Source of the DNA: Acidisarcina sp. | Lineage (GTDB): Bacteria > Acidobacteriota > Terriglobia > Terriglobales > Acidobacteriaceae | Length of the DNA stretch: 64,000 nucleotides | Assembly (NCBI GenBank): GCA_035539175.1 | Contig: DATLIY010000007.1 | Coordinates: 1,178,001-1,242,000 of the forward strand | Direction: 5' to 3' | Shown here: one piece after another, positions 3,947 through 10,528 of the stretch | Position numbering within the stretch: position 1 is the first letter of the stretch | How the letters are laid out: every line of letters starts with the position of its first letter | Made by a program: the position numbers and the translations under genes | Notes under the pieces: model-generated | Databases searched by the model: none | Told to the model about the DNA's origin: nothing | What the model saw: the letters and a program-made list of their open reading frames with translations, nothing else

Positions 3947-6079
3947 ATGCAATCTACCCGTATCGTTCGCCTGCCCGCTGTCACTCTATCCCTGATTTGC
4001 TACATGATTTGCTCCCTGGTCCTCTCTCAGGCCAGCGTCACCTGCGCGCAATCCGCTTCTTCCCGGCCAAAGACTGCCGCCAATACCTCGGCGTCCGACG
4101 CGCCGGCCGAACCGAAAAAGCCGGTCCTGTTCGATACCACGGCCATCGACAAAACCGCCGATCCGTGTACGGATTTCTATCAATACGCCTGCGGCAACTG
4201 GGTCAAGGCAAACCCGGTGCCTCCGGACCAGATCCGCTGGGGCCGCTTCAACGAGCTTGCCGAGCGCAACAACTGGCTGCTCTACCAGCAGCTCCAGGCG
4301 GCCGCCAATCCCCGCGCAAAGCGCAGCCCGCTGGAGGCAAAATATGGCGATTTCTACGCTGCCTGCATGAACACGGCTGAGGCGAATGAGAAGGGGATGC
4401 AACCGGTCCAGCCGGCACTCGATCAAATCGCCGCACTCAAGGATAAGAGGAGCCTTGCCAGCCTGCTGGCATCCCTCAACACGCAGTACGGAACCAATGC
4501 GCTCTTCCGCTTCCGCGTTGAACAGGACGACAAGGATTCGTCGCGGCAGATTGCCGCGGCAATGCAGGACGGCCTGGGTCTTCCCGACCGCGATTATTAC
4601 CTGGAGACGAGCGAACGGCAGCAGAAAATACGCCAGCAATACACCCAGCATGTGACAAATATCTTCAAGCTGGCCGGAGACACGCCAGAGCAGGCCGCAG
4701 ACGAGGCCGCAAGTGTGCTGGCCATCGAAACTGCGCTGGCTAAGGCTTCGTTGAGCCACACCGAACTGCGCGAACCCGAGAAGAACTACCATCTCATCAC
4801 CGTGGCGGAACTGGACAAGCTCGCGCCGGACTTCGACTGGAGCGAGTATTTCGACAACATTGGCGTGGGCAAGTTCGGCACGCTCAACGTCGCTCAACCC
4901 GAGTTCGTGAAGGGCATGAATGCGTTGATCGATACGCAGAGCCTCAATGCCTGGAAGAGCTATCTGCGCTGGCATACGCTGCACACCGCGGCACCGTGGT
5001 TGTCCACGGCCTTCGACGAGGAGAACTACAGCTTCTATCAAGCCACCCTCTCCGGCCAGCGGGCGCCGACTCCCCGCTGGAAGCGTTGCACCCGGCTGAC
5101 GGATGGATTGCTCGGTGAAGCCGTCGGACAGGATTGGGTCCGGAGGAACTTTCCTCCCGACGCCAAGGCCAACATGAGCAAGCTGGTGGCAGCGCTCGAC
5201 ACCGCGCTCGCCCAGGACATTCAGCAGCTCCCGTGGATGTCGGAGGCAACCAAAAGGCAGGCGGAGGAGAAGCTCGCGGCAATCCGCAACAAGATCGGCT
5301 ACCCGGAGGCCTGGCGTGACTACTCCAGCGTGCCCGTCCAGCGCGATGACCTGCTCGGCAACATCCACCGCGCCTCGCATTTCGAGCGCCAGCGCAACCT
5401 CAACAAGCTGGGCAAACCGGTAGACGAGAGCGAGTGGGGCATGACTCCTCCCACAGTCAACGCCTACTACAGCGCAAGCCTTAACGACATCAATTTCCCC
5501 GCCGGGATACTGCAGCCGCCGTTTTTTGACAACTCCATGGGACCGGCGGTTAACTTCGGCGGAATCGGCGTCGTGATCGGCCACGAGATGACGCACGGCT
5601 TCGACGACGCAGGCAGCAAATACGACGGGAAGGGCAACCTCCGGGAGTGGCAGACACCGGAAGACCGCAAGGCCTTTACCGAGCGAACCGACTGCGAGGT
5701 GGCGGAATATAACAACTTTGAGGCCGTCCCGGGGCAAAAGCTCAACGGCAAGCTCACCCTTGGCGAAAACACCGCCGACAACGGCGGGATTCGCATTGCC
5801 TACATGGCCCTGATGAACACTCTGGCCGCCGAAGGCTCCAAGGCGAACGAGCAGTTGGAGGGATACACGCCGCAGCAGCAGTTCTTTATCGCCTTCGGTC
5901 AGGTGTGGTGCTCCAATTCCACGGATCAGGCCGCCCGCCTGCTGGCGCGCACCGATCCCCACGCCCCCGGCAAGTGGCGCGTCAACGGCTCTGTGCAGAA
6001 TTTTGAGGGCTTCGCCAAGGCTTTTGGCTGCAAAAAAGGCCAGCCCATGTACCCGGAAAAGAGCTGCCGCGTCTGGTGA
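3947..6079 (+). CDS. M13-family zinc metallopeptidase (neprilysin/PepO-like), secreted
   Basis: A 710-residue secreted peptidase expected to cut peptides in the periplasm or outside. An N-terminal hydrophobic signal (about residues 8-34) is followed by the M13 N-terminal domain (DPCTDFYQYACGNW near residue 68) and the catalytic domain with zinc motif HEMTH at residues 546-550 and the third ligand in GENTADNGG (Glu607). The C-terminus ends CRVW, the usual M13 ending. The ATG at 3947 is preferred over an upstream TTG at 3935 because GAGGAG sits directly before it. A strong terminator follows. Confidence 0.94.
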   Translation: MQSTRIVRLPAVTLSLICYMICSLVLSQASVTCAQSASSRPKTAANTSASDAPAEPKKPVLFDTTAIDKTADPCTDFYQYACGNWVKANPVPPDQIRWGRFNELAERNNWLLYQQLQAAANPRAKRSPLEAKYGDFYAACMNTAEANEKGMQPVQPALDQIAALKDKRSLASLLASLNTQYGTNALFRFRVEQDDKDSSRQIAAAMQDGLGLPDRDYYLETSERQQKIRQQYTQHVTNIFKLAGDTPEQAADEAASVLAIETALAKASLSHTELREPEKNYHLITVAELDKLAPDFDWSEYFDNIGVGKFGTLNVAQPEFVKGMNALIDTQSLNAWKSYLRWHTLHTAAPWLSTAFDEENYSFYQATLSGQRAPTPRWKRCTRLTDGLLGEAVGQDWVRRNFPPDAKANMSKLVAALDTALAQDIQQLPWMSEATKRQAEEKLAAIRNKIGYPEAWRDYSSVPVQRDDLLGNIHRASHFERQRNLNKLGKPVDESEWGMTPPTVNAYYSASLNDINFPAGILQPPFFDNSMGPAVNFGGIGVVIGHEMTHGFDDAGSKYDGKGNLREWQTPEDRKAFTERTDCEVAEYNNFEAVPGQKLNGKLTLGENTADNGGIRIAYMALMNTLAAEGSKANEQLEGYTPQQQFFIAFGQVWCSNSTDQAARLLARTDPHAPGKWRVNGSVQNFEGFAKAFGCKKGQPMYPEKSCRVW

Positions 6080-6103
6080 TCCCGGGAAGATGCGTTCGAT
6101 TTT

Positions 6104-6140
6104 GCCCGGCTGCCATGGGTGGACAGCCGGGCTTTCTTTT
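6104..6140 (+). terminator. Rho-independent terminator after the M13 peptidase
   Basis: A perfect 9-base stem GCCCGGCTG / CAGCCGGGC with an 11-base loop, followed by TTTCTTTT. Confidence 0.88.
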
Positions 6141-6160
6141 CTGCTTCCCGCTCGGCAAGC

Positions 6161-6189
6161 TAGCCGAAAGCGGCCTAAGCTTTTACAAT
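6161..6189 (+). promoter_or_regulatory. Conserved promoter block of propeller lipoprotein 1
   Basis: TAGCCG (6161-6166), a 17-base gap, then TACAAT (6184-6189), a good -10 box. The same block with identical spacing recurs before the second lipoprotein gene (7838-7866), while the sequence around it has diverged. Conservation is what supports the call; the -35 matches the standard consensus poorly. Confidence 0.6.
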
Positions 6190-6218
6190 TCAGTTGGGAA
6201 TAATCCCGATCCAGCTCT

Positions 6219-6232
6219 GCTGCAAGTGCAGC
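6219..6232 (+). promoter_or_regulatory. Leader hairpin, copy 1
   Basis: GCTGC-AAGT-GCAGC, a 5-base stem in the 5' leader. The second copy (7897-7910) keeps the stem but has loop TATT, which suggests the structure matters. Confidence 0.4.
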
Positions 6233-6270
6233 CCTCCACCAGCTTCAGCTGGCGAGGATGAAGGAAGCTC

Positions 6271-7533
6271 ATGAAGTTCAGGAATATCGGCCAGGTACTC
6301 TTGGCCTCTGTCGTCTCCGTTGGGCTTTGCCTGGGAGTGACCTCGTGCAGCACCAGCTTTACCGTCGGCTTTCTTTATGTGGTCGGCGCGTCCACTTCCA
6401 ATGGAGCCTCCGGCCAGATCTCCGGCTTCAAAATCGATAATGATAATGGCCGGTTGACGCCCATCACGAAGTCGCCCTTCAGCACCGCGGGCGCGAATCC
6501 TATCCGCGCCGTCATGTTCCCCGGCGGCCGTTTTCTCTATGTGCTGAACTCGAAGCCCACGGGAACCGCTGGTGGCAACATCGCGCTGTTCACGGTCGGC
6601 GGCAATGGGCTTCTCACCTTCCAGGAGAGCTACAGTAGCCAGGGCGCCAATCCGGTTTCTATCGCTGCGGGTAGTAATGGCGCTGATTTCATCTACGTTC
6701 TGGATCAGGAAGTACACGACGCCAACGGGAACGTGATTAACTCCGGGAATGGAGCCATCACGGTATTCTCCGTCGACCCCAACACCGGTCGCCTGTCGCT
6801 GGTAACCAACCAGCAGGTCCTGACCTCCGGCGGCAGCCAGTTGACGTATTTCCCGGTGGGCAACAAGCCAACGGCCTTCGGCCCCATCGCGAACAGCACG
6901 ATCGTCGGCTCCTACATTTACACCGTCGATGCTGACCAGTCTGTCTTCCCCTATGCGATCAATGCTTCGAACGGCCAGTTGACGGTGACGCCCAACGGAC
7001 CTCAGCCGACAGGCGCAACCCACATCAGTGCGATTGGCGGCAACTCCTCAAACGTCTTCCTGCTGGATGCGGGCAACGGCGGCCACAGCACGATCCTGCC
7101 CTATACGCGCGGACCCAACGGATCCCTGCAGACCGTCGTCGGCGGCGCGATTCCGAATGACCCGACCGTGACCAACCCCAGCGATCTGGTCGTCGATTCC
7201 AAGGGCAAGTTCCTCTATATCGCCAACGCCGGCCCCAACAACAATCCGGCCAACCCGGCTAGCGCGATCAGTGCCTATTCCATTCTTCCTAATGCGACCA
7301 GCGGTCTCCTGACCGCCGTCGGTGGCGAGCCGTTCCCCTCTGGCTCTCAGCCCGTCTGCATTCTGGAAGATCCCTCGAACCAGTACATCTATACCGCGAA
7401 CCACAGCGACAGCACGGTGACTGGTCGAAAGATCGACACCAACACCGGCGTGCTGAATGATCTGGTGAAAGGATCGAGCATCGCAACCACGGGAAGCCCG
7501 ACCTGGTGCGTGGTCACCGGCAGAACGCAATAA
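6271..7533 (+). CDS. Seven-bladed beta-propeller lipoprotein (lactonase-like), copy 1
   Basis: A 420-residue exported protein with repeated YVxN/YxxN-type propeller blades (FLYVLNSKP, FIYVLDQE, FLYIANAG, YIYTANHSDSTVT), as in the 6-phosphogluconolactonase/YncE-like fold. The N-terminus is a lipoprotein signal ending VTSC, so it is probably lipid-anchored. The ATG follows GAAGGAAGCTC. It is paralogous to the next gene: the signal sequences begin MKFRNIGQVLLA and MKLRKLGQVLLA. Enzymatic activity is not shown by the sequence; many such proteins in this group are of unknown function and may bind partners at the cell surface. Confidence 0.85.
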   Translation: MKFRNIGQVLLASVVSVGLCLGVTSCSTSFTVGFLYVVGASTSNGASGQISGFKIDNDNGRLTPITKSPFSTAGANPIRAVMFPGGRFLYVLNSKPTGTAGGNIALFTVGGNGLLTFQESYSSQGANPVSIAAGSNGADFIYVLDQEVHDANGNVINSGNGAITVFSVDPNTGRLSLVTNQQVLTSGGSQLTYFPVGNKPTAFGPIANSTIVGSYIYTVDADQSVFPYAINASNGQLTVTPNGPQPTGATHISAIGGNSSNVFLLDAGNGGHSTILPYTRGPNGSLQTVVGGAIPNDPTVTNPSDLVVDSKGKFLYIANAGPNNNPANPASAISAYSILPNATSGLLTAVGGEPFPSGSQPVCILEDPSNQYIYTANHSDSTVTGRKIDTNTGVLNDLVKGSSIATTGSPTWCVVTGRTQ

Positions 7534-7560
7534 GCAGGCGGAAGAAGATCCCCTGCAATG

Positions 7561-7593
7561 GAAGGCCCGCGGCAAGCGGGCCTTCTGCTTTTT
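7561..7593 (+). terminator. Rho-independent terminator after lipoprotein 1
   Basis: A 10-base stem GAAGGCCCGC / GCGGGCCTTC with loop GGCAA, followed shortly by TTTTT. Confidence 0.85.
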
Positions 7594-7837
7594 ATCTGGC
7601 TTTCGTCAGGCTGGCGACGCTCTGCCGCCGCCCCCGGCCACCCCGCGATTCGGTAAGCCTTTGCGAACTGGCACGCAAGATAGCAAAAGAATTCCGGCTT
7701 TTGCAGCAAGCGATTCCCCTCACCCTTCACAATTCCCCTTACAATCAAAGAGAAGCTCGGCAAGAGTGTCAGGCGCAGTTGGCCCCTGCCGGTACAGGAA
7801 TCGCAGCTGCGTTACGTAGAAATGGAAGCGTCTGAGC

Positions 7838-7866
7838 TAGCCGAAAGCTGCTCAAGCTTTTACAAT
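7838..7866 (+). promoter_or_regulatory. Conserved promoter block of propeller lipoprotein 2
   Basis: TAGCCG (7838-7843), a 17-base spacer, then TACAAT (7861-7866). The block GCTAGCCGAAAGC through AAGCTTTTACAATTCA matches the one before copy 1. The remainder of the 416-base gap between the two genes holds the terminator of copy 1 and nothing else I can identify. Confidence 0.6.
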
Positions 7867-7896
7867 TCAAGCGGGAGTCAATCCCCATCCAGTTTT

Positions 7897-7910
7897 GCTG
7901 CTATTGCAGC
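7897..7910 (+). promoter_or_regulatory. Leader hairpin, copy 2
   Basis: GCTGC-TATT-GCAGC: same stem and place as the hairpin before copy 1, different loop. Confidence 0.4.
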
Positions 7911-7949
7911 CCCAGGTCGCTGTTTGTGCGTCCAGGACGAAGGAAGCGC

Positions 7950-9140
7950 ATGAAGTTGAGGAAATTAGGTCAGGTTCTGCTGGCCACTGCAGTATCCCTA
8001 GGTTCGAGTCTGGCAATCACGTCGTGTGGCAACGTATATACCATTGACTTCCTTTACGTGACCTCCTCGAAGAACAATCCCGGACAGGTCGCGGTCTATA
8101 AAGTCGATAACCAGTCAGGCGCGCTCACACCGCTTCCCCAGTCACCCTACCCGTCGGGCGGACGTAATCCCGTCGCGGAAGTGACCTCTCCGGACTCCAA
8201 GAATCTCTACGTCGTCAACCGCGACGACAACACCGTGGTACAGTTCGCAATCGGCAGCGATGGCAAGCTCTACCCCCTGCACACGGTAAATACACCGGGT
8301 GGCTTCCCCGTTGCGGTAGCTGTGAATCCAGCGGGTACCTTCCTCTATGTTGTGGATACCTACCAGCCCGGCTTTACCGATGCCACTCCGGGACCCGGCG
8401 CTCTCGTCGTCTTCCCGCTTGCCAAGGATGGATCGCTTGGCGCACCCGTGAATAACGGAAACCTCACCTACTTCCCGGTTGGCTTTTCGCCCATGGGCGT
8501 GACGGCTCTTGCTAACGGAAATTCGGTATATGTGGCTACCAAGCACGGCACTGTAGCCACCGACACAGGCCGCATCTACATGTTCAGCACGGGTAGCGGC
8601 GGTTCGGTCGCCCCCCTGGGAAGCGGCTTTGTTCCGGCAGGCGTAGCGCCGAATGCAATTGCCAGCGATCCCACGGGCCGCTTCGTATACGCGACCGACG
8701 GCGTCTCCAATCAGTTGATCGGATATACGGTGACCTCCGGCGGAATTCTCAACCCGATGATCAACGGCCCCTTCAAGACCGATCAGTTCCCGAACAGCAT
8801 AACGATCGATCCTCGCGGCTATTACATCTACGTGACGAATTTCAATTCCAACACGCTGAGCGCCTATGCCCTGGATCAGTCCAACGGCACGCCCGCCCAG
8901 GTTGCCGGCTCGGGCACCTTCGGAACCCGCACGGGACCGACCTGCGTTGTCGTCGAACCCGGTCTTGGACGCTATGTCTACACCTCCAACTTCCTCGACA
9001 ATACGGTCACTGCCTTCCAACTCAATCCGCACACCGGATCCCTGGTTGGCGTGCAGAATTCGCCCTTTGCCGCTCCCGGACAACCTACCTGCGTAGCCGC
9101 GATCGCACATGGCAATCACGCAGTTCAGGCCATCCCCTAA
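7950..9140 (+). CDS. Seven-bladed beta-propeller lipoprotein (lactonase-like), copy 2
   Basis: A 396-residue paralogue of the preceding gene with the same architecture: lipoprotein signal ending ITSC, then propeller blades (NLYVVNRDDNTVVQF, FLYVVDTY, FVYATDGVSNQLIGY, YIYVTNFNSNTLSAY, YVYTSNFLDNTVTAF). The frame opens at a GTG at 7926, but the ATG at 7950 follows GAAGGAAGCGC and matches the start of copy 1. Copies 1 and 2 have diverged strongly in the mature part, so this is an old tandem duplication. Function unknown beyond the fold. Confidence 0.85.
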   Translation: MKLRKLGQVLLATAVSLGSSLAITSCGNVYTIDFLYVTSSKNNPGQVAVYKVDNQSGALTPLPQSPYPSGGRNPVAEVTSPDSKNLYVVNRDDNTVVQFAIGSDGKLYPLHTVNTPGGFPVAVAVNPAGTFLYVVDTYQPGFTDATPGPGALVVFPLAKDGSLGAPVNNGNLTYFPVGFSPMGVTALANGNSVYVATKHGTVATDTGRIYMFSTGSGGSVAPLGSGFVPAGVAPNAIASDPTGRFVYATDGVSNQLIGYTVTSGGILNPMINGPFKTDQFPNSITIDPRGYYIYVTNFNSNTLSAYALDQSNGTPAQVAGSGTFGTRTGPTCVVVEPGLGRYVYTSNFLDNTVTAFQLNPHTGSLVGVQNSPFAAPGQPTCVAAIAHGNHAVQAIP

Positions 9141-9151
9141 CTGCTGCAAGA

Positions 9152-9206
9152 CTTCCTGTACAAGAAAAGGCCCGCTCAGTGAGCGGGCCTTTTCTTGTAC
9201 AGGAAG
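9152..9206. terminator. Bidirectional terminator with a perfect 27-base stem
   Basis: Bases 9152-9178 and 9180-9206 are exact reverse complements around a single G. The core AAAAGGCCCGCTCA / TGAGCGGGCCTTTT gives a GC stem flanked by A and T runs, so it can terminate both the lipoprotein gene and the convergent acyltransferase gene. Confidence 0.85.
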
Positions 9207-9382
9207 AAGTTTGTGAAGCAATCCAAGAGCCCAGGCTGCTCATTCCCAGATGTTGCACGCACGGCCTGTAGCTACCTCAGGCATACCTCACGCAGTGCCT
9301 GCTCGCCCGCCTATGCAGCTCGCCCTATCCACGATGGAGCATAGACCCAGAAACGTCGTGGGCCGCATCCCAGCAGCCTGTT

Positions 9383-10528
9383 TCAGGCATTCAGCAGACG
9401 CTTCATCACGCGTGCACCGGGACGCTCCACCAGATGTAGTGCGGCCAACGCACCCAGCACGAGGAGCGCGTATGAGATCCAGGGGTCAAAGCGAATCAGC
9501 CCCGTCCACTGTAATGCACCGGATTCGTGCAGTAGCGTCCACATGTTGAAGTGCAGTAGGTAAAGGCAGTAGCTGGCTTCGCCAATCATCACAAATCCCC
9601 GAAAGCCGAAGAAATGGGACAGGGGATTCGTACCCGCCAGGCCGAGGATCAGCACCCCGAACAGCGGCATCAGGAGGCCGTCGTGCATCATGGCATACGG
9701 CAGCCGCGCCCCGTAGAAGAGCACAGCATACAGGCTGGCAAAGCCTACGATGCCCAGCCAGAAGCGTATCCGCGACGCAGCAGGAATCCGCTGATGTACG
9801 GCTGCCAGGGTCACGCCAAATAGAAACGACGGCAGATGCGGCAGCGGCGTATATTTCAGCGCCCTCATCCACACACCGTTGGTGTAGCGGCCCGGGTGCG
9901 GGTCCCCATCCGGCAGCAGCCACGTGTAGAGCGCCGGAGCGACCATGCCCAGAACCCAGAAGATCAGTAGCAGGGCAATGAGCCGCGACCAGCGCCGCGG
10001 CATGCGCCAGCGGATCAGAAACGGGAAGAAAGCGTAGAAGAAGACCTCGGTGGACATTGTCCACGCCGGAGTATTCCAGAATGTTGAGAGCGCCGGGCTC
10101 CAGCCCTGCAGCAGCAAGGGCGTCAGCACCACTCCCGCGATAAACATGGGTCTGGAGTGGGCGTAGAACTCCTGGTGCAGCATCTGCACGGAGATCAGCA
10201 GGCTGAGGAGGTAGACCGGGTACAGCCGCGTCAGGCGCGCCTTCCAGAACCGCCTGGCGGACACTTCCCCGCGGGCGCCGCGCTCTGCGTAGTTATACGC
10301 AAGGATGAATCCGGACAGCAGTAGGAAGAAGCTCACCGAGATGAATCCGGCATCGACCACCGGCGCGAGCCACCCAAACCATCGAGGATTGGAAAAGTGG
10401 AAGAAAACCAGGTTCATTGCAGCGAACGAGCGCAGCCCCGTCAGAGCAGGCAGCCGGGAGGGCTTGACTAGCCTGGCAGGGACTTCCCCACTCAGGCTGT
10501 CACCAGTGAACCGACCTTCTCTCCGCAC
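9383..10528 (-). CDS. Membrane acyltransferase, family 3 (OafA/NodX type)
   Basis: An integral membrane protein with about ten hydrophobic segments that would transfer acyl groups to sugars of surface polysaccharide or other exported molecules. The family signature begins at [20 protein letters not shown], including the conserved His. The start is uncertain: GTG at 10528 (381 residues) and TTG at 10597 are the in-frame options, and both overlap the 3' end of pyrH. No strong ribosome binding site is seen, so translation may depend on pyrH. It sits where frr often follows pyrH in bacteria. Confidence 0.85.

Follow-up and report, generated by a model that had tools for sequence, protein, structure and literature searches.

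In the window (the whole stretch of 64,000 nt, positions 1,178,001-1,242,000 of an Acidisarcina sp. contig, that we analysed), two tandem genes for predicted propeller lipoproteins, A and B, are each preceded by a copy of the same putative promoter and leader, which together look like a private control region of the array rather than part of a genome-wide regulon. The unusual part is the near-restriction of this element to one locus across the family Acidobacteriaceae. We consider it fairly probable that the array is old and family-wide, and that its expression cassette has been kept by lineage-specific selection as the mature proteins diverged. Both conserved promoter footprints and paralogues that change in concert are familiar phenomena, and this locus is a new instance. 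A footprint that spans many genera and is almost confined to a single locus provides a defined putative promoter to map in this group; moreover, it is the expression signals of these old tandem paralogues, and not the proteins, that change in step.

The two genes and their putative control regions

The features of the locus are given below in coordinates of the window.

6161-6189, forward strand: putative promoter A, with TAGCCG (6161-6166), a 17-nt spacer with a TTT end and TACAAT (6184-6189)
6196-6207, forward strand: GGGA-ATAA-TCCC element where transcription of A is expected to start (from the sequence and relatives)
6219-6232, forward strand: leader hairpin 2 of A, with GCTGC (6219-6223), loop AAGT and GCAGC (6228-6232)
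6260-6273, forward strand: ribosome-binding and start region of A, GAAGGAAGCTC-ATG (from the sequence and relatives)
6271-7533, forward strand: gene A, first gene of the array, 420-aa propeller lipoprotein (PF10282, 71.1 bits, cut-off 21.7)
7559-7590, forward strand: intrinsic-terminator-like stem with a T run in the gap between A and B (terminator scan, statistically weak)
7838-7866, forward strand: putative promoter B, with TAGCCG (7838-7843), a 17-nt spacer with a TTT end and TACAAT (7861-7866)
7873-7885, forward strand: GGGA-GTCAA-TCCC element where transcription of B is expected to start (from the sequence and relatives)
7897-7910, forward strand: leader hairpin 2 of B, with GCTGC (7897-7901), loop TATT and GCAGC (7906-7910)
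7939-7952, forward strand: ribosome-binding and start region of B, GAAGGAAGCGC-ATG (from the sequence and relatives)
7950-9140, forward strand: gene B, 396-aa propeller lipoprotein (PF10282, 95.6 bits, cut-off 21.7)
9152-9206, strand not applicable: perfect 27-nt inverted repeat with a 1-nt gap, 3' of B (repeat search)

The initial annotation of this DNA had described TAGCCG and TACAAT at identical spacing before both genes, a GCTGC/GCAGC stem that is kept while its loop changes, and mature proteins that are far apart. The promoter letters agree one by one, the stem is unchanged between loops AAGT and TATT, and the mature proteins share approximately 31% identity. A and B also have in common a GAAGGAAGC[TG]C-ATG-AAG start region and GGGA...TCCC near the expected start; neither the GGGA/TCCC element just past the -10 nor the conserved ribosome-binding and start region appeared in that annotation. 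A repeat finder returned a 42-nt promoter block that is 86% identical between A and B (spacing 1677) and a 127-nt block, comprising the leader end and the gene start, that is 70% identical (spacing 1679). For gene B, the ribosome-binding site, the signal peptide and the relatives favour ATG 7950 over GTG 7926; the automatic call at GTG 7926 would put eight more residues ahead of the signal peptide.

Both proteins have a lipoprotein signal peptide, with lipoboxes GVTSC and AITSC, and the lipobox cysteine is invariant across an alignment of 15 proteins; on these two features A and B are predicted lipoproteins. An AlphaFold2 model of protein A (pLDDT 81.4, pTM 0.84) found its best structure matches among 6-phosphogluconolactonase-like (Pgl-type) propellers, the fold having been checked for A alone, and identity to the eight best matches was only 14-19%. 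A and B resemble the seven-bladed propellers of PF10282 (E. coli YbhE, 1ri6; Klebsiella, 6nau; Bacteroides, 3fgb) in their Pfam match and, as far as the model of A goes, in their propeller fold, but differ from them by the lipobox signal peptide. The name 6-phosphogluconolactonase was rejected and should be avoided for A and B, because their scores against the NCBIfam equivalog (25.6 and 61.5 bits) are far below its cut-off of 370. Of the named records retrieved with protein A, the nearest comes from an Acidobacteriaceae assembly (82% identity), and the searches made assigned no function to these propeller lipoproteins.

From the sequence we infer a promoter, its start position and separate transcripts for A and B. 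The two promoters are like sigma-70-type promoters in the -10 TACAAT (five of six positions of TATAAT), in the 17-nt spacing, which falls within 16-18 nt, and in a purine-rich start that is expected from sequence about 7 nt past the -10. They differ in the -35, which resembles T[AG]GC[AC][CG]AAA and not TTGACA (TAGCCG matches the latter at three of six positions), and in being almost confined to a single locus. A sigma-70 consensus scan (9-of-12 rule) called neither promoter A nor promoter B. TACAAT and the 17-nt spacing make RNA polymerase carrying the main sigma factor the most likely reader of the putative promoter. No mapped promoters for the Acidobacteriaceae were found in the titles and abstract beginnings of the literature searched.

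A and B are probably each their own transcription unit, given that the stem at 7559-7590 follows A and the inverted repeat follows B; with a terminator-like stem 3' of A, B would need its own copy of the cassette. The terminator scan found two terminator-like sites versus 3.3 expected in shuffles. The inverted repeat at 9152-9206 is probably a two-way terminator. A Rfam scan of 5900-9400 gave eight weak matches, none above the gathering score and none inside either leader; seven of the eight overlap the inverted repeat.

Distribution of the element in the genome and the family

Homologues of A (protein search, E 1e-25 or better) occur in 151 of 300 family genomes and in 25 of 79 genera. The 151 matching genomes supplied 48 array loci, which we picked by hand at one to six per genus and which cover 24 genera. 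Wherever the contig was long enough, A came first, with one or two B-like genes behind it; in eight loci whose flanks were inspected, the upstream flank often held an MCE/MlaD-like gene and an M13-type peptidase and the downstream flank an acyltransferase, all named by resemblance. A tree of 112 mature proteins sets all 45 A proteins apart on one side of a branch with an SH-aLRT support of 100, and the A/B split therefore predates the divergence of the sampled genera. Two arrays, L065 (G013) and L149 (G095), contain two close B-type paralogues each, with the promoter ahead of the third gene and not the second.

Of 112 genes whose start was usable, 71 matched our search pattern for a TACAAT-type -10; these comprise 44 of the 45 A genes plus 27 later ones. 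G155_A has a CTACAAT that is visible by eye but missed by the pattern; G049_A and G182_A have TTTACAAT at the -10 site. The rule for assigning starts did not work for G049_A, G182_A and G311_C; the first gene of G020, which is cut off (249 aa), was omitted. Aligned on the -10, the consensus reads T[AG]GC[AC][CG]AAA and, 12 nt later, TTTACAAT; the -10 letters, the -8 position and partly the three letters before the -10 are set by the search pattern and carry no evidence. Among the 71 genes, position -27 is G in 54, -26 is C in 60, -23 is A in 65 and -22 is A in 59. The motif [AG]GC..AA is in exact register in 47 of 71 promoters, representing 21 of 24 genera, and missing in register in the other 24, a few by a one-base shift (e.g. 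G171_B). The commonest -35 8-mers are AGCCGAAA (13/71) and GGCACAAA (11/71). In a table of 16 genera both copies share an identical -35 9-mer in four (g1, g60, g75, g80). A -35 is difficult to discern in g18 and g55 (both copies) and in g9, g43, g47, g52, g74 and g78 (one copy each).

Later genes with a promoter have a median gap of 204 nt before them (n=26), as opposed to 113 nt for those without (n=38); being closer to the preceding gene, the latter are probably read through from it. Terminator-like stems in these gaps do not sort the two groups (5/26 with a second promoter, 4/38 without).

The initial annotation had gone further and proposed a shared regulator or sigma factor acting on a propeller-lipoprotein regulon. 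Shared control of A and B finds support in the like element, in register in the promoters counted above, before homologous arrays of other genera, and in the co-variation of the copies within genomes described below. The regulon fared otherwise. The bare TAGCCG-17-TACAAT has two matches in the 3.92 Mb genome, both at this locus, but the reversed control likewise gives two, and the hexamer pair alone is therefore uninformative. A longer pattern, allowing up to two mismatches, matched A and B and nothing else in the genome, its reversed control giving none. No third copy was thus found at this tolerance, despite seven further PF10282 loci; upstream regions were read for four of these (L018, L025, L030, L031), and the rest (L017, L027, L028) were covered by the genome-wide search. 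Five other TTTTACAAT sites in the genome did not match the longer pattern.

Scans of the family gave a similar picture. With an RGG tail, the pattern has 28 matches, spread over 26 of 150 genomes, and a propeller lipoprotein starts downstream of every one of them; the reversed control has none among the matches listed. Without the tail there are 31 matches in 24 of 150 genomes (reversed control, one): a lipoprotein start follows in 29 of the 30 loci fetched, the 30th (L201) lies 82 nt before the A match of G126, and the 31st is the G132_A promoter, the same as L175. A looser pattern has 87 matches in 84 of 300 family genomes, with none for the control among the matches listed, and 80 of them lie within 2.5 kb of an A homologue match. 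As for the other seven, a lipoprotein start follows in four (L242, L243, L244, L247); L245 meets a contig edge just past its ATG-AAG start; L246 meets one inside the leader and repeats the other match of G280, from which we infer that it belongs to an array; and the match in G150, a genome without an A match, is unrelated and the sole one off the array. Therefore, 86 of 87 matches in 300 genomes are located at the array, counting the one placed there at a contig edge, a figure that speaks for the covered forms of the element only, because, of the 151 array genomes, the looser pattern picks up 83 (in addition to G150). None of the regulon scans, whether of the own genome or of 150 or 300 family genomes, revealed a second target class.

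Likeness of the copies within a genome and its explanation

We compared A with the promoter-bearing later gene of the same genome, against shuffled partners and using pattern-positive genes only. Across 25 pairs, both the promoter (0.644 versus 0.581 shuffled) and the leader (0.613 versus 0.577) were more alike within genomes, with none of 2000 shuffles as high in either case, whereas the mature protein had no excess (0.320 versus 0.319; 649/2000). The excess was marginal for the signal-peptide DNA (89/2000) and weak for the first 20 nt past the -10 (135/2000). With one pair per genus (16 pairs), the promoter remained more alike (0.667 versus 0.597; 1/5000), with smaller effects in the -35 core (54/5000) and the first 20 nt (64/5000). 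The last 18 nt before the ATG were also closer (0.781 versus 0.742; 13/3000), and windows from -90 to -61 looked slightly more alike within genomes (0.29-0.35 versus 0.25-0.26, no shuffle test). The within-genome effect is modest and several regions were tested. Concerted evolution of paralogues is a general concept, which A and B resemble in that copies of the same genome are closer than expected; here, however, this is the case in the expression signals and not in the signal-peptide synonymous sites or the mature proteins.

Our favoured reading is that the first array gene, and in many genera also a later gene, would be driven by its own copy of a cassette made up of a T[AG]GC[AC][CG]-like -35, usually 17 nt, TACAAT, a short leader and a strong GAAGGA ribosome-binding site, the leader starting at or beside a GGGA/TCCC-like element. 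The cassette would be older than the sampled genera, and selection would keep the expression signals while the mature proteins drift apart. Since a single lineage-specific reader would have to accept both copies of a genome, these would drift in step; that reader may be RNA polymerase bearing the main sigma factor, or else a factor that acts at this locus. Points against this reading are the modest size of the within-genome effect, the slight likeness at -90 to -61, the promoters that lack [AG]GC..AA in register or a recognisable -35, the sigma-70 scan that called neither site, and terminator-like stems that neither sort with a second promoter nor exceed the number in shuffles. Preferences of RNA polymerase and ribosome that are lineage-wide could give the same pattern of likeness.

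Short gene conversion between the tandem copies might keep the leaders alike instead, and we regard this as rather unlikely. It would suit the excess likeness of the spacer, where little consensus is kept (16 pairs, 0.489 versus 0.404; 24/5000), and some very close pairs, such as the leaders of G018 (0.80) and the promoters of G000, the genome of the window (0.90). However, the likeness jumps at -30, with no excess in the adjoining upstream 30 nt (16 pairs, 0.242 versus 0.267; 4501/5000), and such edges count against conversion because its tracts should not respect them. Neither do synonymous codons of the signal peptide show a clear excess (0.500 versus 0.474; 430/2000). The effect sits in the expression signals and, on balance, lineage-specific selection is therefore favoured over gene conversion; selection, not recombination, appears to keep the copies alike. 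Still less likely, in our estimate, is a dedicated regulator (a transcription factor, an alternative sigma factor or a protein that binds the leader) with the array as its only target in each Acidobacteriaceae genome, the two dominant -35 forms reflecting its co-evolution with both copies. The near-confinement to one locus, these two forms and the genera with identical -35 9-mers would fit such a factor, but no regulator gene was recognised by inspection among ORFs of at least 250 aa at eight array loci, and the -10 nearly matches the consensus of sigma-70. CsrA-type control of the leader was rejected, as the csrA gene is absent: PF02599 had no matches in the genome, while the E. coli, B. subtilis and T. 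maritima controls were detected. The genome-wide regulon, finally, has in its favour two copies with identical spacing, but with no third copy beside the other PF10282 loci and a single off-array match in the family it counts as refuted within the sensitivity of the scans. Nothing short of an element that has diverged strongly could save it, and we give it very little credence.

Leader forms among relatives

Folding of the two leaders alone was weak (z -1.52 and -1.10). A GCTGC/GCAGC stem that closes a loop of 3-5 nt is present in 13 of 71 leaders and seven genera (g1, g13, g60, g66, g75, g80, g87), at another position within the leader in g60. A stem of at least five Watson-Crick pairs of any kind is found in the later leader in 32 of 71, versus 11.1 expected from letter shuffles. 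Given these counts, hairpin 2 is best read as a local form of a folding tendency, not a family-wide signature.

The GGGA/TCCC element is more widespread: its exact form is present in 27 of 71 leaders, from 10 of 24 genera, and a relaxed form, GG[GA]...[CT]CC, in 55 of 71 (21 genera). It can fold at the expected 5' end. Compensatory pairing, sought by comparing own with swapped 3' arms, was found neither in the full set (897/2000 shuffles as good) nor with one leader per genus and slot (273/2000), and we therefore claim no RNA hairpin here. The ompA transcript is an example of an mRNA stabilised by a 5'-terminal stem-loop. A and B are like such mRNAs in their foldable element at the expected 5' end, but differ in that no compensatory pairing was found and in that the 5' end here is predicted. 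The distance from the -10 to the ATG is 61-69 nt in 26 of 71 genes and 80-87 nt in 34 of 71; with the distances mostly in these two ranges, the leaders fall into a short class and a long one.
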